Origin: a virus
Virus record (IMG/VR): IMGVR_UViG_3300005253_002076
Coordinates: 1 to 22,286 of that record
DNA length: 22,286 bases
Direction: 5' to 3' (one strand)
Shown here piece by piece: positions 9,958 through 22,286 of this stretch (position 1 is the first letter of the stretch; every line of letters begins with the position of its first letter). The notes beneath the pieces were generated by a model. That model made no database searches. It had not been told where the DNA came from and saw only the letters and a program-made list of their open reading frames with translations. The position numbers and the translations under genes were made by a program.

Positions 9958-10124
9958 TATTCTTCCTGAACTATTTGCGGACTAATTTCTACTGTTGCAT
10001 CATTTCCTAACAAATGTCTTATTTCATCTCCATGCTCTCCAGCTACTTTTGCTGTACTAAATACATGAGCAGCAATTAATTTTTTTGAGTCTGTTGATTT
10101 AACTATCAGGAGATAGACTTTCAT
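9957..10124 (-). CDS. Small hypothetical protein, 55 aa
   Basis: A short gene fitting exactly between its neighbours. It starts MKVYLLIVKSTDSKKLIAAH at the ATG at 10124, which shares TAATG with the helicase stop. Its own TAA at 9957 shares TAATG with the next start. It looks like a small alpha/beta peptide (strand, helix, loop, strand). The exact coupling on both sides is the main support. Confidence 0.7.
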   Translation of the reverse strand: MKVYLLIVKSTDSKKLIAAHVFSTAKVAGEHGDEIRHLLGNDATVEISPQIVQEE

Positions 10125-12304
10125 TATTTCCTCCTACTCCTCATTTCTGTTTTCATCTTCTTTATCAACTCATAACCCATACTTTTCCCAGCGTCGGGCG
10201 AGTCATTTCCCTCAACAATCTGCTCAATGATTTTTAATTTTCGTGCCAGAATTTCCTGTATCCATTCTTCTATTGTATCTGATCCAACTACATAGTAGGA
10301 TACAGCGCCATGACATTCATTTAACCTGCCGTAAATCCTACCTTCACATTGTTGGTGATAAGCAGGAGTCCAGCCAAAGTCTGAGAAGATAACATATCCC
10401 GCTTTAGTCATATCCAATCCCTCACCAGCTACAAATCCCGTAGCGACTAGGAATTTTATGCTTGGGTCAGATTGAAATTGATCTACATATCTCTGCCTAT
10501 CTTCCTGCTTTGTATCTCCATCAAACACAACCGCTTCATGTCCTAACCTTTTCCCAATTCCTCTAGCTACAGCTTTGAATCCTGAGAAGATAACAACCTT
10601 TCCTTCTCCTAATTTATCTGCAGCTGGAGAAACTTCGTAGGATTCACTTAGCTCTATTGCTAAATCAGCTATTCTATCTACTTTGTCTTGAGCTACGATT
10701 TGTTTTAACCTAGTTATTTGTGCTAACAATCCTGTTATACTTATTGCCTCTGAGCTAAGGTCAAATTCTGCTAGTTGTTGATATATTCCTTCTAGTGCTG
10801 TCTCGTATCTATCTCTAGCTTCGGGGGACAACTCATGCCAATCGTAAATCCTTTCGATGGCTGGCAGTTCTTTTTGAACATCTTCTCTCTTTCGTCTAAT
10901 CATAATTGTTGAGAGAGACTTTCTTAATCTGTCTACATTTCTAACTGAGCCGTCCATAAATATATATTGATTACAGAAATTATCCTCTGATGAGTATTGC
11001 CCTGGACGGATTAAGCGGAGATAGGAGTATAGTTCTCGTGGTCTATTTAGAATAGGAGTAGCAGTTAGGAATAACCACTTTAGAGTTTGTGAAACATTAT
11101 TTAAGTGAAGTGTGGCTCTTGTTCTATTTGCAGAAGTATTCTTGATTTTATGAGCTTCATCACAAACAACTACATCGTAGTCTGCTGCGGTTAAAATTTC
11201 TGCCCAAAGAAATCTATCTTCTTTCTTTTCAGGGTCGTTGCTAACATCTAAACCCTTGCCGAAGATGTCGTAATTGATAATTACATATTTAGGTTTCTTT
11301 GTAACTAGGTGTTCCACGTCCCATTGGGAGGGTGTTGAGCCTTTACAAATATATGCATCCTCACCCGTTAGATTCTTGATATGCCTACGCCAGTTTTCTT
11401 TAATTGCAGCAGGACAGATGATAATTGCATGAAGTTTCTTATATTCAATGTAACCTATTGCTTCCCAAGTTTTACCTAAGCCTGTCATGTCTGCAATAAT
11501 TGCATCACCGCCGGCGCAATCAATAAACTCAACGGCGACTTCTTGAAACGGGCGGAGGTTGTATCCATTCTGTAATTCTACGGAAAGGGATGATTCTAGT
11601 TTTCCTGCTAGGTTGGAGAGTCTTTCTCTTTTTTCTGTTTCTATTTCTATTGCAGCCTTAGCTTCTACACTCCACTCTACTTTAGGATTGTCTAATAGGG
11701 CTTCTTCAATTCTCCAACCTTCAGTTTTTGGTAAGCTCCAAGAGATTTCATCCTTTGACCTTTTTTCCTTCTTAATTCCTTCAATCTTATCAATATCCCA
11801 CATTCCACCTTTTACTTTTAGAATCTGGAATCTTTTGTCTCTTAGGGTTATTTTGTAATTTGGTTTAGCTTCTTCTTTTTTCTGCCAAGCCTTGAATTTC
11901 TGGAAAGCTTGGTATGTTTGGAAGTCCCAATCAATATTGATAGTGGGAATTAACTTCAGACGTTCTAATAATTCTTCTAAGCTTGAGGCAGGAATGTGAT
12001 TAATATTCTCTACTGTTCTATCGTAAAAGCGTCCATTTGTTCCTCGTAAGAGATTTACATATTCATGGTGATACTTAACTGGATTATTTTCTAACAAGAA
12101 AGTGGGATCAGTAACTTCTCCATTTTTCTGAAGGACTTCAATTACTTTCACGGTCATTGGCATTTTTGCTACTAATTCTTGGTAATCTATTTGCTTTACA
12201 GCCTTTGCAGTACGTAAGTTTTCTATCTTCTCTAGTAATTGTTTCTCCTCACTAGAGAGTATATCTATTTCTTTTTGTAGGTTGTCGAGGTTTGGGTTAG
12301 TCAT
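10124..12304 (-). CDS. SNF2-family (superfamily 2) DNA helicase/translocase
   Basis: The product is 726 aa. The N-terminal third (1-240) has a coiled coil (residues 5-35) and a mixed domain. The helicase core starts near residue 250 with RPFQEVAVEF (motif Q/Ia region). Motif I is DMTGLGKT (272-279), motif II DEAH (382-385), motif III FLTATP (412-417), motif V GEGLDMTKAGYVIFSD (627-642) and motif VI QQCEGRIYGR (651-660). This order and the GxGKT/DEAH signatures fit SNF2/Rad54/SMARCAL1-like ATP-dependent DNA translocases used by phages in replication-fork or recombination work. The start at 12304 overlaps the upstream gene by 8 nt. Motif I reads DMTGLGKT rather than the common DEMGLGKT. Confident as to family; substrate is not determinable. 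Confidence 0.93.
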   Translation of the reverse strand: MTNPNLDNLQKEIDILSSEEKQLLEKIENLRTAKAVKQIDYQELVAKMPMTVKVIEVLQKNGEVTDPTFLLENNPVKYHHEYVNLLRGTNGRFYDRTVENINHIPASSLEELLERLKLIPTINIDWDFQTYQAFQKFKAWQKKEEAKPNYKITLRDKRFQILKVKGGMWDIDKIEGIKKEKRSKDEISWSLPKTEGWRIEEALLDNPKVEWSVEAKAAIEIETEKRERLSNLAGKLESSLSVELQNGYNLRPFQEVAVEFIDCAGGDAIIADMTGLGKTWEAIGYIEYKKLHAIIICPAAIKENWRRHIKNLTGEDAYICKGSTPSQWDVEHLVTKKPKYVIINYDIFGKGLDVSNDPEKKEDRFLWAEILTAADYDVVVCDEAHKIKNTSANRTRATLHLNNVSQTLKWLFLTATPILNRPRELYSYLRLIRPGQYSSEDNFCNQYIFMDGSVRNVDRLRKSLSTIMIRRKREDVQKELPAIERIYDWHELSPEARDRYETALEGIYQQLAEFDLSSEAISITGLLAQITRLKQIVAQDKVDRIADLAIELSESYEVSPAADKLGEGKVVIFSGFKAVARGIGKRLGHEAVVFDGDTKQEDRQRYVDQFQSDPSIKFLVATGFVAGEGLDMTKAGYVIFSDFGWTPAYHQQCEGRIYGRLNECHGAVSYYVVGSDTIEEWIQEILARKLKIIEQIVEGNDSPDAGKSMGYELIKKMKTEMRSRRK

Positions 12305-12809: not shown

Positions 12810-13019
12810 TTAAACCCTCGCGATTATATCCTCAAATTCAACCCGATAAACCGTTTTTCCGGTTAATTTCATTCCACCAGGAGTAACGATAGTTTCTCTA
12901 ATAAAGATAAAATCGTCACGTAGCCCTACAACTCTACCTTTAAATATTCCATATTTATTTTTCCAAACTACTACTTGATTCAACTCGAACCTTGTTCTCA
13001 TTTGCATTAAATGTTCCAT
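12810..13019 (-). CDS. Small beta-rich hypothetical protein, 69 aa
   Basis: The start is set at the ATG at 13019 (MEHLMQMRTRFEL) because GGGAG lies 7 nt upstream. An ATG at 13040 would extend it by seven residues. Most of the product is beta-strand-like with turns (QVVVWKNKYGIFKGRVVGL, FIFIRETIVTPGG, TVYRVEFEDI), as in small SH3-like or Hfq-size barrels. It overlaps the upstream gene by 65 nt, long for this strand, but both frames look genuine. Confidence 0.64.
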   Translation of the reverse strand: MEHLMQMRTRFELNQVVVWKNKYGIFKGRVVGLRDDFIFIRETIVTPGGMKLTGKTVYRVEFEDIIARV

Positions 13020-13662
13020 GACTTTTCTCCCTATTTTCAAACTCCTTTACAAGTTTATTTAACTTAATTAGCTCCATTTTAGCGCGATGTGTCATTAAGC
13101 GCCACGGTTCCGACTCAGCGGGCATGGTTCGGGTTATAGTTATTCCCGTAGTTGGATCAAATATTGTTATCTTTTGTTCTCTCTTAATTTCTAAATGGTG
13201 GTCTTCTAAATCATATGTCATGAATGGTGGTACTAGTTTCTTAGCTTCTTCTTGACGTTTTATTAAAGCTGTTGTTCTATCTATTGATTTGTTATGAACA
13301 GAATTTCTTACTTGTTCAAGGATAGGATGTAGAAGTTTCTCAAATTCCTTAGTTGAACAAACTGTCATAACTAAATGACAGATTGGTCCAGCGATTATTT
13401 CGTAAGATAATTCGGAGAATTTTCCGGTAGGTAGGATAATGTCTACAGTAAAATCAAACTGAGGGATTAGTCCGTATCTATTTTTTCCAATCTTATAGAG
13501 AAGTTCAGTATATGTTTTTTGGAATGGTTCTAACTCTGCTAACTTTTTCTGAAAGCTTTTATCTACCTTGGGGAGATTCCAGAGTTTAGGTACTTGTTTT
13601 CTATCGTTCTTTTCTTTGTTATTTAATTGAGTAATGGAAACTGGATCAATGCTGGACGACAT
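12955..13662 (-). CDS. First gene of leftward operon; hypothetical protein, 235 aa
   Basis: A 235-residue product starting at 13662 after a GAGG Shine-Dalgarno. It is the first gene after the best promoter in the window and a structured leader. A basic, disordered-looking N-terminus (about 1-40) precedes a central alpha/beta domain (PQFDFTVDIILPTGKFSEL, GPICHLVMTVCSTKEFEKLL). A strand pair (KITIFDPTTGITITRTMP) leads to a helical C-terminus and a Ser-rich tail. I do not recognise the fold. First position in an operon often indicates an early regulatory or host-takeover protein. Confidence 0.78.
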   Translation of the reverse strand: MSSSIDPVSITQLNNKEKNDRKQVPKLWNLPKVDKSFQKKLAELEPFQKTYTELLYKIGKNRYGLIPQFDFTVDIILPTGKFSELSYEIIAGPICHLVMTVCSTKEFEKLLHPILEQVRNSVHNKSIDRTTALIKRQEEAKKLVPPFMTYDLEDHHLEIKREQKITIFDPTTGITITRTMPAESEPWRLMTHRAKMELIKLNKLVKEFENREKSHGTFNANENKVRVESSSSLEK

Positions 13663-13707
13663 TGTTTCCTCTTATTTTTTAATTGTAAGAAAAAAAGAAA
13701 TAGGTTT

Positions 13708-13797
13708 GTTAGGCTTAGTTTCTACGTAGAGAAACTAGATCGAAGTCTAGCCTCCGAAACCAGTTGGCCACCTTACGGCAGCCCAATCTTGCCTAAC
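13708..13797 (-). ncRNA. Structured 5' leader RNA (candidate riboregulator, about 90 nt)
   Basis: The element is closed by a perfect 7-bp stem, GTTAGGC (13791-13797 in leftward sense) with GCCTAAC (13708-13714). Inside are three hairpins: GGCTGCC-GTAA-GGTGGCC (within 13764-13786), CTAGA/TCTAG (13735-13750) and TAGTTTCT/AGAAACTA (13716-13737). The last two share TAG and may alternate. In leftward RNA the first hairpin has two G-U pairs and a GNRA loop; in rightward RNA those pairs become A-C mismatches, so the leftward strand is the folded one. It lies between the promoter at 13861-13889 and the start at 13662. It is not a tRNA because no T-loop or 7-nt anticodon loop exists. Function unknown; a ligand- or protein-sensing leader is an inference. 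Confidence 0.6.
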
Positions 13798-13860
13798 TTT
13801 TGATGGCGTCCCACCCTGGAAACCTACTTCCTTTTCCTAGCCCACAAGGGGCGAATATCC

Positions 13861-13889
13861 AATTTAACACCTATTCCCAAAGAAGTCAA
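13861..13889 (-). promoter_or_regulatory. Leftward sigma70-type promoter
   Basis: Reading leftward, TTGACT (complement of 13884-13889) and TAAATT (complement of 13861-13866) are separated by exactly 17 bp. Both are close to consensus. The expected transcript starts near 13854, giving a leader of about 190 nt before gene 13662. Confidence 0.72.
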
Positions 13890-13890
13890 G

Positions 13891-13917
13891 TGCCAATATG
13901 GCAGTGCCAATATGGCA
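13891..13917. promoter_or_regulatory. Two tandem palindromic operators TGCCAATATGGCA
   Basis: The 13-bp palindrome TGCCAATATGGCA occurs at 13891-13903 and again at 13905-13917. The first ends 1 bp from the -35 box, with its centre about 43 bp before the expected start. That is the position used by class II activators, though a repressor could also bind there. The two copies are 14 bp apart, slightly more than one helical turn. The binding protein is unknown. Confidence 0.7.
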
Positions 13918-13934: not shown

Positions 13935-14156
13935 TTAGGAATTAAACAAATCGGGGAAACGTGGCCTTTTTGTGGGAACCAAGCCCTCACTTAAACAATA
14001 GGAATAGAAAATGTCTGCATCTTCTTCTGTCTCAAAATGGGCTAGAGCACGTAGGAAACTTTTTTCTGGTGCTCCTGACGCAGTAAGAGCACGTTCCCAG
14101 CGGAAATTAAATAATACTACCCATTTTCCGGTTGTTGATGCATCACCTTTCATCAT
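13935..14156 (-). CDS. Small hypothetical protein, 73 aa
   Basis: A 73-residue product with adjacent ATGs at 14156 and 14153 after a strong GGGAGG Shine-Dalgarno. Strand (KWVVLFNFRWERAL), helix (EKSFLRALAHFETEEDADIFYSY) and Pro-rich tail form a small alpha/beta unit. It is the last gene before the operator/promoter region of the next transcript. Function unknown. Confidence 0.73.
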   Translation of the reverse strand: MMKGDASTTGKWVVLFNFRWERALTASGAPEKSFLRALAHFETEEDADIFYSYCLSEGLVPTKRPRFPDLFNS

Positions 14157-14159
14157 AAT

Positions 14160-14324
14160 TTAATCCTCCCATTCCTTTCTATGGCAATATTCCGCTAGTT
14201 TGGTTGTAGTGTGAGTTAAAAGAACATTACAACCGAATTTCCTAGCAAAATACATCGCAGTTTTTAACTGCATTCCCAACTTAAAACGATTTCCAGAAGG
14301 GAAAGTAACTTCAGCTAGCCACAT
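14160..14324 (-). CDS. Small hypothetical protein, 54 aa
   Basis: The start is set at the ATG at 14324 (MWLAEVTFPSGNRFKLGMQL), which has GAGG 8 nt upstream and sits 10 nt after the upstream stop. A reading from 14378 would overlap that gene. The product has a strand pair followed by a helix (KTAMYFARKFGCNVLL) and a basic end. Function unknown. Confidence 0.68.
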   Translation of the reverse strand: MWLAEVTFPSGNRFKLGMQLKTAMYFARKFGCNVLLTHTTTKLAEYCHRKEWED

Positions 14325-14334
14325 TATTATAACC

Positions 14335-14529
14335 TCACTTTCTCTGAAGTCCTGTTTCTGAATCGTACTCTTCTGCAAGTTTCTCAGTTTGTCTCATTCC
14401 TTCTGCCGACAGTAGCTCTAGAACCACATCACATAATTCCCAGTACAGGAAACGTGCGTCGTGTTCCATATTTACTGCATGTTCTTTAAGGTTCTTAACC
14501 TTTTCGGTTTGGAATTGGAAGTTTATCAT
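14335..14529 (-). CDS. Small helical hypothetical protein, 64 aa
   Basis: A 64-residue helical product (KVKNLKEHAVNMEHDARFLY, LCDVVLELLSAEGM). The ATG at 14529 overlaps the metalloprotease stop as ATGA, so it is coupled to that gene. No motif is recognised. Confidence 0.7.
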   Translation of the reverse strand: MINFQFQTEKVKNLKEHAVNMEHDARFLYWELCDVVLELLSAEGMRQTEKLAEEYDSETGLQRK

Positions 14530-14927
14530 AACCCACTCCTCTCAAAATGCCCGTCCGGCCCACATATCGCAATCGGATATGCCCGTTCGTGGTGACGTTG
14601 TGGAAATACTAACCTAACATCAAATGACGCACAGAAAAATCTCTCTATTGCCTTGAAATTAACCCCGTGTTTCTCATTCCTCCCGTAATCACGAAACGCA
14701 ACTAAATGTGCAATCTCATGACAAACGTAGTACCTGACATAATGAATACTTCTCCCTAGTACCCAAAGTGGAATTGTTATTTTATTCTTATCATAATGGG
14801 CGCGACCCCTATTCCTAGTTATCCCAATTCTTAACTTTGGAATAACTGAAGATGGAACCTTCTTATTTAATTCGGAGACTGTCACGGCAACTATCCTAGT
14901 TATTATCTCTCTATGTCTAGCGTCCAT
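14526..14927 (-). CDS. SprT-like zinc metalloprotease, 133 aa
   Basis: The 133-residue product contains the zinc metalloprotease signature YYVCHEIAHL: H70, E71 and H74 as HExxH, with a downstream H87 (NEKHGVNFKAIERF) as likely third ligand. This order and the strand before it (NKITIPLWVL) match the SprT/WSS-like fold, a group that cleaves DNA-bound or DNA-crosslinked proteins in cells. A strong GGGAGGGG Shine-Dalgarno precedes the ATG at 14927. A phage role in clearing protein blocks from DNA or in host takeover is inferred. The usual C-terminal zinc ribbon of SprT is absent. It is the first gene after the repeat-rich 14928-15495 stretch. Confidence 0.82.
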   Translation of the reverse strand: MDARHREIITRIVAVTVSELNKKVPSSVIPKLRIGITRNRGRAHYDKNKITIPLWVLGRSIHYVRYYVCHEIAHLVAFRDYGRNEKHGVNFKAIERFFCASFDVRLVFPQRHHERAYPIAICGPDGHFERSGL

Positions 14928-14970
14928 GTTCCCCTCCCAGGAATCACCATATCTCGATTAAATGTCTGAG

Positions 14971-15023
14971 CCAACTCGTCCAACTCCACCCAACCACGTC
15001 CAACCACGTCCAACCAACCAACC
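14971..15023. repeat. Degenerate CCAAC repeat array
   Basis: Successive units CCAACTCGT, CCAACTCCAC, CCAACCACGT (twice in tandem) and CCAACCAACCAACC follow one another with a 9-10 bp period. It is not a CRISPR array because the units have no unique spacers of 25-40 bp. The last unit pairs with a GTTGG repeat about 230 bp downstream. Confidence 0.7.
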
Positions 15024-15051
15024 CCCGCGAGTTGGGGCCTAGGGGGTTGGT
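15017..15051. repeat. 10-bp stem hairpin, GC-rich
   Basis: ACCAACCCCC (15017-15026) and GGGGGTTGGT (15042-15051) form a perfect 10-bp stem around a 15-nt loop. No T run follows on either strand, so it is not a standard intrinsic terminator. The loop contains GCGAGTTGG, shared with the second hairpin downstream. Confidence 0.72.
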
Positions 15052-15117
15052 GTCAACATTCTTTACACTTATTCATTCTCATATATTTCCCCAGTGTGGT
15101 GGTGTATATAGTTGTTC

Positions 15118-15139
15118 TTTTTTTTTTTTTTTTTTTTTT
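15118..15139. repeat. Homopolymer run of 22 T
   Basis: Twenty-two consecutive T residues lie in the middle of the gene-free stretch. In leftward transcripts this would be a run of 22 A about 190 bases before the metalloprotease start. It could bend DNA or ease melting, or its length could be affected by sequencing or assembly. Confidence 0.85.
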
Positions 15140-15237
15140 AAACGAAAGAGCCAATTACTACAATTTACTTGGGAGTTTAGGACTCCCTAATATATAGAAA
15201 AACATTTGAAGCGATTCGACCCCGGACCCGCCCCCGG

Positions 15238-15267
15238 CCAACTCCCGCGAGTTGGTTGGTTGGTTGG
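15238..15267. repeat. Hairpin plus GTTGG repeat with G-quadruplex potential
   Basis: CCAACTC-CCGC-GAGTTGG (15238-15255) is a perfect 7-bp hairpin. It runs into GGTTGGTTGGTTGG (15254-15267), the inverted copy of CCAACCAACCAACC at 15010-15023. Four GG pairs with TT loops are the known minimum for a two-layer G-quadruplex. CCCGCGAGTTGG is repeated directly at 15024-15035 and 15244-15255. Confidence 0.68.
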
Positions 15268-15495
15268 GTGTTTCTGGTCAACCTGGAGGTTCTGGGGTTC
15301 ATTTGCTCCATTTCGTTACATACCATTAAGAAAGTATGAAGGCTCCAATTATCACGTCCCTTAGATACACCTAGCATTTCAATCTTTTTGATTCTAAGAG
15401 GAGAAAGAAAAGGGACCACCGTTGCCGGCAATCCCTTTTCCTTGATTTCTTAAGGTCCCTAGCTACCGGGTCATAGTCCTATCCCTAAGAAATCC

Positions 15496-15975: not shown

Positions 15976-16029
15976 GTGCCAACTTGGCAGGTTTTTAGTG
16001 TGCCGTATTGGCATCGTTTTGTCCATCAT
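15957..16029. repeat. Direct repeat TTTTGTCCATCAT, two copies
   Basis: TTTTGTCCATCAT occurs at 15957-15969 and 16017-16029, exactly 60 bp apart, flanking the operator pair. The left copy fills the promoter spacer. The repeat may mark a second protein-binding site or a partial duplication of the promoter. Confidence 0.7.
15977..16013. promoter_or_regulatory. Two palindromic operators upstream of gene 15897
   Basis: TGCCAACTTGGCA (15977-15989) and TGCCGTATTGGCA (16001-16013) share the TGCCR-N3-TGGCA plan of the sites at 13891-13917. The copy adjoining the promoter is at the identical distance. Between the copies the spacing is 24 bp rather than 14. GGTTTT follows the right half in the 15977 copy, and similar GGTTATTTT follows the 13905 copy. 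Confidence 0.68.
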
Positions 16030-16742: not shown

Positions 16743-16955
16743 CTAAATTGGCCCAACTTCAATCCTGATCCCCAGCGCCGTTGCCCGCGCTAAGGATTTG
16801 TAGAAAAACAACTCACTCTCCTTTTTGTTCCGACAGATGATAGGACTGACACGTTTCCACGTGTGCCCAAGTTTGGCAAATAAGGAATACTTTCTTCGCG
16901 GATTCTTCCGCGTTTTGTTGTATTCCTCCTGATGCCAGAAATGACCTTTATGCAT
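16743..16955 (-). CDS. Basic hypothetical protein, 70 aa
   Basis: A 70-residue basic product (MHKGHFWHQEEYNKTRKNPR, then HTWKRVSPIICRNKKESELF) with a GAGGAAAT Shine-Dalgarno before the ATG at 16955. It overlaps the upstream membrane protein gene by 8 nt. Aromatic and Lys/Arg residues could suit nucleic-acid contact. No family is recognised. Confidence 0.68.
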   Translation of the reverse strand: MHKGHFWHQEEYNKTRKNPRRKYSLFAKLGHTWKRVSPIICRNKKESELFFYKSLARATALGIRIEVGPI

Positions 16956-17070
16956 ATTTCCTCGGAAAAAGTAAGAGAAGTAAGAACCACATCATGAGCG
17001 CATACTGCATGCCAACGGTTGCGGCTACTACTGTGCTAACGAGAAAGTAAGCAACTACAAAGTTTTTCAT
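16948..17070 (-). CDS. Tiny hydrophobic membrane protein, 40 aa
   Basis: A 40-residue protein, MKNFVVAYFLVSTVVAATVG followed by MQYALMMWFLLLLF and a basic end PRKYA. One or two membrane helices are predicted by eye. A GAGGGAG Shine-Dalgarno lies 3-4 nt before the ATG at 17070. Same length and similar residue order to the 8939-9061 product (N-F near the start, A-x-T-x-G in the middle, W-F-x-L before F and Lys). It is the first gene of the leftmost-reading transcript beside the divergent junction. Confidence 0.72.
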   Translation of the reverse strand: MKNFVVAYFLVSTVVAATVGMQYALMMWFLLLLLFPRKYA

Positions 17071-17486: not shown

Positions 17487-17499
17487 TGTCATATTGACA
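17487..17499. promoter_or_regulatory. Operator-like palindrome TGTCATATTGACA
   Basis: This 13-bp palindrome has the same TGNCA-N3-TGNCA layout as the four TGCCA sites, with T/A in place of the C/G pair. A half site TTGGCAGGTTTT lies at 17471-17482. No -35/-10 pair sits at the distance seen for the other promoters, so the link to the same regulator is tentative. Confidence 0.4.
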
Positions 17500-18615: not shown

Positions 18616-19292
18616 CTTCTACAGCATTAGACCTGAACAATAAACCATTACCTTCTGTTAAGGGAAATGGTGATGGGACTAGTATAAATGTAAGTTTAGT
18701 AGAAACAAATACCAAGAGAAAAAGAGGTAGGCCAAGGAATGATGATCCAAATAGACCAGCGAGATTAGTTAAATGGGTTCCTAAGGAGTGGACGCCCGTA
18801 TACGAGCAAATTGTATCTCTGGACTGCATGGGCGTTCCACAAAAAGAAATTGCGGCTAAGTTTAACTTTACCACGGTGATGATAAGTAAGGTCTGCTCAA
18901 CGCCCCAGGCCAAGATATTCAGACGGAAAGTTCTTGAGATTCTTGCAGAGAGGAATAAGATCTTTCAAGAAGATAGATTTGAGCGGACACAAGTTCGGGC
19001 GATGGAGAGAATCTCTTCATTTATGGAGGACGATGCTTTATTTGCATCCGATCCTTTTGCTGTGGTAGATAAAGCATTTAAGTTGTTAGAAAAAACTAGA
19101 GTCTTAGGTGGTAGTGAGAGTAAAGGGAATGTTAATATTTTAGGAGATGTTAACCTACTTTCCCAAACTGCCATTGTTGAACTTAAAGATGGTTTGGCAA
19201 AAGCCCGGGAATCTCGGGAGTTACATAAAGAATTAGAGGCGGTAGACGTTACTTCTCCTACAATTGAACGGAAAAGGATAACAGGTAAATGA
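18612..19292 (+). CDS. terS: Terminase small subunit-like DNA-binding protein, 226 aa
   Basis: The 226-residue product lies immediately before the large terminase subunit and overlaps it by an ATGA. It has an AT-hook-like KRGRPR (about 37-42) and a helix-turn-helix near 74-98 (GVPQKEIAAKFNFTTVMISK). A helical oligomerisation region follows (KIFRRKVLEILAERNKIFQ). This domain order fits small terminase subunits, which recognise the packaging site and load the motor. The gene symbol is assigned by position and HTH, not by a specific family match. Confidence 0.78.
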   Translation: MTSTALDLNNKPLPSVKGNGDGTSINVSLVETNTKRKRGRPRNDDPNRPARLVKWVPKEWTPVYEQIVSLDCMGVPQKEIAAKFNFTTVMISKVCSTPQAKIFRRKVLEILAERNKIFQEDRFERTQVRAMERISSFMEDDALFASDPFAVVDKAFKLLEKTRVLGGSESKGNVNILGDVNLLSQTAIVELKDGLAKARESRELHKELEAVDVTSPTIERKRITGK

Positions 19293-20971
19293 CACTTTAT
19301 CCTGATAACACTTTCTCCTTCCCAAAGGAATTAAAAGCCCCATCTGATGATGAATGGGAAGCTCTGTTGCGTCCTGATAGATTAGACAGAGCACAGGAGG
19401 AAGCTAAGAAAAGAAGAGATGCCTTAGACGAAGATGAAATTAGGGAACTTCAAATTTTAGCTAAAACAGATACATTTTTCTTATCTTACTCAATTTTGGG
19501 TTACACAAAGCTCACGACGAAGTTTCACGGTCATTTCTGTGCCTGGTTAGATAAAACTAGAACTCAGAGAAAGATTCTAGATGACGAAGAGCTTGATGAG
19601 TTAGTATGGCTGTATCGTATGACTTTGTTAGCACGATCTCATTTTAAATCAACGATTAAAACAATAACGGGTTCGGTCCAGTCTGCTTTACCAGACGTTG
19701 CTGGAAAGGAACTTCATCCTTTTAATTTAGGAACCGACATTCGATTACTCCTTGGACACGAAGCACACGCAGGGTCACAACGGTTCTTATATGAAATTAC
19801 CGGACATTTTACAGGCAATCCGAAACTCATCGCATTGTTTCCAGAATGTGTCCCCAACCCTAGAGTACAAAGGATAAATAAGTCTGAACTGGAACTTCCG
19901 AGGTCTAGCTTCTGGGCCGAGCCTACTTTTGATACTATTGGAGTTGGAGGAAGATCACAAGGACGACATTATAATCTAATTAAGTTAGATGATATTTTTG
20001 GAGATAAAGCTAGAGATAGTAGAGTTGAGAGAGCGACGTTAGTTGATTGGTTTGACAATATTCAGTCATTCCTTGTTAATCTGAAAGAAGATCACATTGA
20101 TGTAGTGGGAACTAGATGGTCAGTTGATGATATTTATGCTCACATGATGAAGGTTTATGGGAGTAAGTTAATTAAGTACATTAGAAGAGTTGAGGAGTTT
20201 AATGAGGAAACAGGCAAAGCAGAGCCCGTTTTCCCTGAACACTTCCCTGCTGAATCATTAGACATTCTTAGGAAGAATAAGAGGGTTTGGGCAGCCCAGT
20301 ACGCCAATGATCCACATGAAGGATTAGCTGAGTTTGATCTTACTTGGAAAAGATTCTTTTCCCGAACACCAACTTATCCTGTTACAGCTGTAACTCCTCA
20401 CGGTTCCTTACGGTGGAAGTTAAAGGATTTAGATATTCTCATCCTAAACGATCCGGCTGTCACAAAGACTCCGGGGATTGTTGTTACGGGAACGGATAAG
20501 TTCATGAACATTTTTGTCCTTGAAACAATAAAAAGGGAAATGAGCCCAATGGAGTTTGTTGAGACTCAATTCTCCTTAGTTCAAAAATATTGGCCAAGGG
20601 CCGTCTGCATGGAGGAAGTTGTATTCTCCGAAGTTTATTCTCATTGGTTAAGAAGGGAGATGTTGATTAGGAATATTAGGTTCAATATTCTTCCTTATAA
20701 ACCTCCAAAGGATAAGCTTAAGTTTGAAAGGGTTGCGGTTCTTGGTAATTACTATGCTGCTGGGCAGATTTTCTTCCACGCAAGTCAGGAAGAAATGATT
20801 TGGGAATTTGACAACTTTGGTGCGACAATGAACTACCATCTCCACGACGCCCTTGCTCAAGGAGAACAGTTTTGGAGACCTGCTGTCTGTATTAAAGATG
20901 AAAGAGAACGTGATGAATTCCTAGAAGAACGTTTTGAAGAGTTAGATCCTGTAACTGGGTATAGCAACTGA
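19289..20971 (+). CDS. terL: Terminase large subunit (packaging ATPase/nuclease), 560 aa
   Basis: The product is 560 aa, a usual length. The ATPase half has a deviant Walker A ARSHFKST (115-122), a Walker B LIKLDD (230-235) and a coupling motif VVGTRW (272-277). The nuclease half is RNase H-like with acidic residues D388 (LNDPA), E442/E443 (CMEEVVF) and D520 (LHDALAQ). These are the signatures of phage TerL, which drives DNA into the procapsid and cuts the concatemer. The gene is intact and followed 2 nt later by a homing-endonuclease gene. Packaging type (pac or cos) cannot be told. Confidence 0.95.
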   Translation: MTLYPDNTFSFPKELKAPSDDEWEALLRPDRLDRAQEEAKKRRDALDEDEIRELQILAKTDTFFLSYSILGYTKLTTKFHGHFCAWLDKTRTQRKILDDEELDELVWLYRMTLLARSHFKSTIKTITGSVQSALPDVAGKELHPFNLGTDIRLLLGHEAHAGSQRFLYEITGHFTGNPKLIALFPECVPNPRVQRINKSELELPRSSFWAEPTFDTIGVGGRSQGRHYNLIKLDDIFGDKARDSRVERATLVDWFDNIQSFLVNLKEDHIDVVGTRWSVDDIYAHMMKVYGSKLIKYIRRVEEFNEETGKAEPVFPEHFPAESLDILRKNKRVWAAQYANDPHEGLAEFDLTWKRFFSRTPTYPVTAVTPHGSLRWKLKDLDILILNDPAVTKTPGIVVTGTDKFMNIFVLETIKREMSPMEFVETQFSLVQKYWPRAVCMEEVVFSEVYSHWLRREMLIRNIRFNILPYKPPKDKLKFERVAVLGNYYAAGQIFFHASQEEMIWEFDNFGATMNYHLHDALAQGEQFWRPAVCIKDERERDEFLEERFEELDPVTGYSN

Positions 20972-21587: not shown

Positions 21588-22286
21588 CCACTCCGTTCGG
21601 TTCAGTAGTTGGTCAGCTTTTAGAAGAAGCTGGCGGTTCAATCCCATATAACCTTCCAGAAGAATCTATTTATCTAGAGAGCGTGCGTGGACTACGTACT
21701 GAACTAGATTCTATTGTGGCAGGTGATCCTGGATTTGTAATTGATCCTTCTACTATTGACCATGATGCTCTGCTTAATTTTGACCAGGATGAACATTATC
21801 TACAATCTGCCATTATAGAAGTAGGAATAGTAGCAACAGGGACTTGGAACGCTGATGTTCTTACAGAGGTTTATGGAGGAACAGGACAATCTAGTTATAT
21901 TCTTGGTGATACTTTATACTCCGATGCAGCTAATTCCATCGCTAAACTTGCTGGGAATACAGTCGCGACTAAGAAGTTTCTAACACAAGTCGGTGATGGT
22001 GCAATCTCTGCTGCTCCTGCTTGGAATACTATTATTGATGGAGATATTGCAGAAAGTTCTGTTACCCAACATCAAGCTGCATTATCTATTGGTGCAGCAC
22101 AAATCACAGCGGGAACTTTTGGAGCTGGAGACTACGTGTTCCCTGCTGATGTAACAACGAGTGCCAGCTTTGTATCAACTGGCGGAGGTGCAACGGGAAA
22201 ATTCCTCACGGGCGGTGCTGGTGCTACAGTCTTTGCTTTTAGTGGAGCCAATTTTGACATAAGAGCAGGGGATGGTATGCAGTCGT
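21584..22286 (+). CDS. Tail fibre / receptor-binding-like protein, N-terminal part
   Basis: The frame is open from 21584 for 234 codons and runs off the window. Residues near 68-85 (HDALLNFDQDEHYLQSAI) and the segment GGTGQSSYILGDTLYSDAAN, then KLAGN and TKKFL, are the recurrent motifs of phage tail-fibre and tip proteins. Gly/Ala/Thr-rich beta repeats follow. It should help recognise the host surface. The adjacency to terL without an intervening portal or capsid gene is notable. It has no visible stop, so the length is unknown. Confidence 0.8.
   Translation, partial: MTTPFGSVVGQLLEEAGGSIPYNLPEESIYLESVRGLRTELDSIVAGDPGFVIDPSTIDHDALLNFDQDEHYLQSAIIEVGIVATGTWNADVLTEVYGGTGQSSYILGDTLYSDAANSIAKLAGNTVATKKFLTQVGDGAISAAPAWNTIIDGDIAESSVTQHQAALSIGAAQITAGTFGAGDYVFPADVTTSASFVSTGGGATGKFLTGGAGATVFAFSGANFDIRAGDGMQS

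Follow-up and report, generated by a model that had tools for sequence, protein, structure and literature searches.

A leftward phage operon leader with a pair-conserving outer helix around an exchangeable cloverleaf-like element

The 90-nt cloverleaf-like element in the leader of a long leftward phage operon is predicted, when the whole leader is folded, to be enclosed by an outer helix of 18 continuous bp (13837-13820 with 13707-13690). As judged from the two related leader sequences, selection is visible for this outer duplex in the leftward RNA and not for the cloverleaf. The most likely reading, to which we assign a probability of roughly 0.4, is a structured 5' leader whose duplex would shield the operon mRNA, be cut by an RNase III-type enzyme, or both.

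Setting and promoter of the leader

The window, i.e., the whole stretch of DNA analyzed, is an IMG/VR virus record of 22,286 bp. Protein and DNA searches identified a single close relative, contig 3300005253_000511 of IMG/VR (positions prefixed L002 or L125 below), with proteins 83 to 91% identical to those of the window. The helicase and terminase searches led to this same contig, and it was the only relative found for the first-gene protein (83% identity) among phages, plasmids, IMG/VR, and GTDB genomes. A search with helicase alignment A3 returned no relative; the patterns chosen for it were probably poor. The first-gene protein had no match in PHROG or Pfam. By blastn, the leader DNA matched none of 50,697 phage records, and the leader region showed no similarity to plasmids. 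A literature search on structured phage leaders gave no title or abstract matching this leader. The DNA shared by the two phages is 68 to 88% identical, compared with 96% in a 181-bp segment (window 22106-22286; L125 13077-13257) whose spacing differs; this segment may have been recently exchanged or be strongly constrained. The features of the window discussed here are listed below.

19289-20971, + strand: terminase-like gene
13891-13917, - strand: tandem pair of 13-bp boxes, TGCCATATTGGCA, immediately 5' of the -35 hexamer
13861-13889, - strand: leftward promoter-like site, sigma-70-like (TTGACT-17 nt-TAAATT, extended TG)
13840-13852, - strand: small hairpin GCCC-CUUGU-GGGC near the presumed RNA 5' end (pair probability ~0.9)
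13820-13837, - strand: 5' arm of the outer helix, GGAAAAGGAAGUAGGUUU (counterpart, L002 4907-4921)
13802-13815, - strand: 5-bp hairpin separating the outer helix from the 90-nt element (pair probability, 0.97 to 0.99)
13708-13797, - strand: cloverleaf-like 90-nt element with a 7-bp closing stem (13797-13791/13714-13708), without counterpart in the relative
13766-13783, - strand: 7-bp hairpin GGCUGCC-GUAA-GGUGGCC with a GNRA loop
13716-13762, - strand: arm with two states, a single long bent hairpin or a pair of hairpins
13690-13707, - strand: 3' arm of the outer helix, AAACCUAUUUCUUUUUUU, U-rich (counterpart, L002 4952-4966)
13667-13672, - strand: Shine-Dalgarno-like AGAGGA, outside the long helix, with weak pairing only (0.39)
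12955-13662, - strand: first gene downstream of the leader, encoding a 235-aa protein of unassigned function, start at 13662
10124-12304, - strand: SNF2 helicase

A first-pass annotation of this DNA had placed the 90-nt element downstream of a leftward promoter and upstream of the first gene of the main leftward operon. Both placements agree with our results (promoter-like site, 13889-13861; first gene start, 13662), and the term "main leftward operon" is a fair description of the very long leftward gene run (>12 kb) downstream of the leader. Promoter-type matches are no commoner in the window than in shuffled sequences. The -35 region and the two boxes are kept almost letter for letter in the relative. 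From the promoter match, leftward transcription is predicted to start at ~13855. More leftward ORFs (13935-14927) are located upstream of the leader promoter, so that read-through transcription may also cover the leader region.

Both phages carry 13-bp palindromic boxes (TGCCATATTGGCA or variants of it) upstream of genes, at three places that correspond between the genomes (window 13891-13917, 15977-16013, and 17487-17499; L125 4968-4994, 6630-6665, and 7511-7523), the first place on each list being the tandem boxes of the leader promoter. The window contains seven matches to this box type versus 0.3 expected. The tandem boxes are probably regulator sites, and boxes of this type are probably operators of a phage regulator. 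Because they occupy three corresponding places in both genomes, the leader promoter is probably controlled in both phages. Searched elsewhere, the tandem boxes gave matches that, taken as a whole, look like chance or unrelated repeat arrays; among the search matches, the box-plus-promoter arrangement was seen only in the relative's record.

The outer helix in two leaders

In the minimum free energy (MFE) structure of the whole leader, the outer helix appears as 20 pairs with a bulge. The whole leader has a z score of -4.3, and its complement has one of -0.8. In the relative, the promoter with its boxes and the 5' hairpin are retained, as is the outer helix, there a continuous 15-bp helix formed by AGAAAAGGAUAGGGU with GCCCUAUUCUUUUCU at the same position. 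The helix score of the window leader was reached by 4 of 1,000 shuffles and that of the relative's leader by none of 1,000, figures to be read with the composition of the arms in mind (A/G-rich versus U/C-rich), which makes long helices easier to obtain by chance. The opposite strand of the relative's leader is itself fairly stable (z = -2.2).

The two phages lose DNA similarity at window position 13828 and regain it at 13678; the stretch between measures 149 nt in the window and 74 nt in the relative. Across the 15 outer-helix pairs that can be compared, there are seven substitutions and no broken pair: five one-sided changes that each leave a standard pair and one double change, from U-A to G-C. 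When the same numbers of changes were placed at random, all 15 pairs were kept in 0.08 to 1% of trials, depending on transition bias; this test used a hand-made, pair-maximizing alignment of two sequences only and lends support without being strict. The relative lacks two base pairs of the window helix, in both arms alike, a paired 2-bp length change. The substitutions go through G-U, which is tolerated in the leftward RNA only. The 5' hairpin of the relative (ACCC-CAUGC-GGGU) also carries one compensatory pair, G-C to A-U.

Taken together, promoter, position, strand asymmetry, and pair-preserving changes in the outer helix bear out the earlier description of this region as structured leader RNA of the leftward operon. 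That description was accurate for its 90 nt but missed the 18-bp outer helix, the hairpin at 13815-13802, and the 5' hairpin. Short ORFs overlap the leader, and none that starts inside it is common to both phages; two TTG frames (28 and 46 codons) are seen in both, and their starts lie in the boxes, upstream of the promoter.

The 90-nt element

The closing stem of the element (GUUAGGC...GCCUAAC) is a perfect 7 bp with pair probabilities of 0.95 to 1.0, and the hairpin with a GUAA loop is present, both as first annotated. The three annotated hairpins form only part of the time: a three-hairpin form exists at -35.5 kcal/mol, but a two-arm form is the minimum at -36.1 kcal/mol, with both forms populated to about the same extent. 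The cloverleaf-like shape is that of the three-hairpin state only. On the - strand, the 90 nt have an MFE of -36.1 compared with a mean of -23.4 for shuffled sequences (z = -3.77), and none of 200 shuffles was as stable. The + strand reaches -24.0 (z = -2.0), so that the claim of stability only in leftward RNA is somewhat overstated. Among 1,110 sliding 120-nt windows on both strands, the location of the element ranks 11th by z, i.e., in the top 1% without being unique.

Searches for tRNA and tmRNA by ARAGORN yielded 0 genes. With the covariance models of Rfam 15, the window gave no match at the gathering threshold, and a permissive search gave chance-level matches only (E above 5), in line with the earlier statement that no known riboswitch class is recognizable. 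What the element shares with tRNA-like and cloverleaf RNAs is closure by a 7-bp stem and a maximum of three hairpins. It differs from them in that ARAGORN is negative, a two-arm form competes, and the cloverleaf is not conserved; the proposed resemblance to a tRNA acceptor is thus limited to the 7-bp stem.

Neither the 90-nt element nor the adjacent 5-bp hairpin has a counterpart in the relative, where the apical region comprises 30 nt versus 112 nt in the window. A covariance model of the element (R1), run against 96 sources (0.89 Mb) that included the relative, retrieved the window itself only. In the one available relative, leader position, promoter, and outer helix are all retained, but neither alignment nor covariance search finds a counterpart of the element, an outcome of the kind that the first-pass annotation had itself named as refuting its reading. 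This complete apical difference favors the duplex, rather than a ligand-binding core, as the working part of the leader.

Possible roles of the leader and other structured regions

RNase III-processed phage leaders include those of lambda pL and the T7 early RNAs. A long, near-perfect duplex with conserved pairing near the 5' end, the criterion we used for leaders of this kind, is found here in both sequences compared (18 and 15 bp). Under the preferred reading, RNA started at the predicted site would open with the small hairpin, followed by a duplex of 15 to 18 bp that encloses a variable apical domain, here consisting of the 5-bp hairpin and the multibranched 90-nt element. The 5'-terminal structure would protect the operon mRNA from 5'-end-dependent decay. 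In addition or instead, a double-strand-specific RNase of the RNase III type would cut the duplex, so that the mature RNA would begin shortly before the exposed Shine-Dalgarno sequence of the first gene. A role in stability or RNase III-type processing fits best with the conserved duplex, the exchangeable apical part, the exposed Shine-Dalgarno sequence downstream, and the 5'-terminal hairpin. The leader resembles ompA/papA-type stem-loops and RNase III-processed leaders in its 5'-end hairpin, long duplex, exposed downstream Shine-Dalgarno sequence, and variable loop. It differs from them in its unusually large, branched apical domain. Stem-loops at the 5' terminus that stabilize mRNA are established in E. 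coli, according to works cited in PMC3997798.

Other roles were weighed against the same evidence. The helix could act as an attenuator, i.e., a conditional intrinsic terminator between the promoter and the first gene with regulated read-through. The G+C core is flanked by AAAAGGA, an A-tract, and by a U-tract (UUUCUUUUUUU or UUCUUUUCU). In both leaders the U-rich stretch comes immediately after the G+C portion of the stem, and the A-rich 5' arm is able to pair with it. However, the loops of 30 and 112 nt are far above those of normal terminators, the outer helix is absent from the terminator scan list, and neither a conserved leader peptide nor an alternative antiterminator fold was found. 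We consider attenuation unlikely and regard as more doubtful still an RNA-only antiterminator analogous to the put RNAs of HK022, in which the leader would bind the polymerase and allow read-through of the >12-kb leftward operon. The putL RNA of HK022 is ~70 nt long and forms two bulged stem-loops downstream of an operator-controlled phage promoter (PMC9378689). The present leader likewise lies just behind a promoter that is probably operator controlled, has two neighboring stem-loops, and precedes a very long leftward gene run, but it consists of a continuous 15- to 18-bp helix with a variable apical part, and no sequence similarity to putL was found. Put RNAs have sequence in common among themselves (PMC9378689), whereas the apical part here differs even between two close phages, and no sequence match was obtained in phage records or Rfam.

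The first-pass annotation implied a regulatory RNA of the ligand-, protein-, or tRNA-mimic type, with the 90-nt element as sensing domain. The stability of the element alone (z = -3.8), a closing stem with probability near 1, and an arm with two nearly isoenergetic states would suit such a role. Nevertheless, the element is missing in a relative that keeps the promoter and the gene, it corresponds to no tRNA (ARAGORN) or Rfam family, and the Shine-Dalgarno sequence lies outside any switchable helix; we hold a sensing domain to be as improbable as put-type antitermination. Least probable among these roles is processing of the leader into a stable small RNA acting in trans: the RNA is compact, closed by a double helix, and U-rich at its 3' end, but no unpaired seed is conserved between the two phages. 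It is also very unlikely that the leader represents a previously undescribed class of phage leader RNA, with a conserved duplex as the scaffold for an exchangeable apical domain and a direct effect on transcription or sensing for the operon. The evidence points instead to a control or processing element of an ordinary kind, not to a new RNA class.

If confirmed, the preferred stability or processing role would provide one more RNA-level control element for an almost uncharacterized phage group (two metagenomic records). The comparison also advises caution in reading leaders by eye, as what looks like a cloverleaf in a single sequence can turn out to be the expanded apex of a simpler, conserved helix.

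Two other regions of the window are highly structured. By z, the strongest fold of the window (-6.2) is a long hairpin on the - strand at 16841-16960, in or near a 66-aa ORF; it is mostly missing in the relative, where its flanks are kept. In the other region, ~560 bp without an obvious gene (14930-15490), repeats of the CCAACCACGTCCAACC type occur as direct and as inverted copies (CCAACC...GGTTGG). It also contains ~20 consecutive T's near 15120-15140 and folds very stably at 15201 (+ strand) and 15401 (- strand). This region could be a replication origin or a terminator region.
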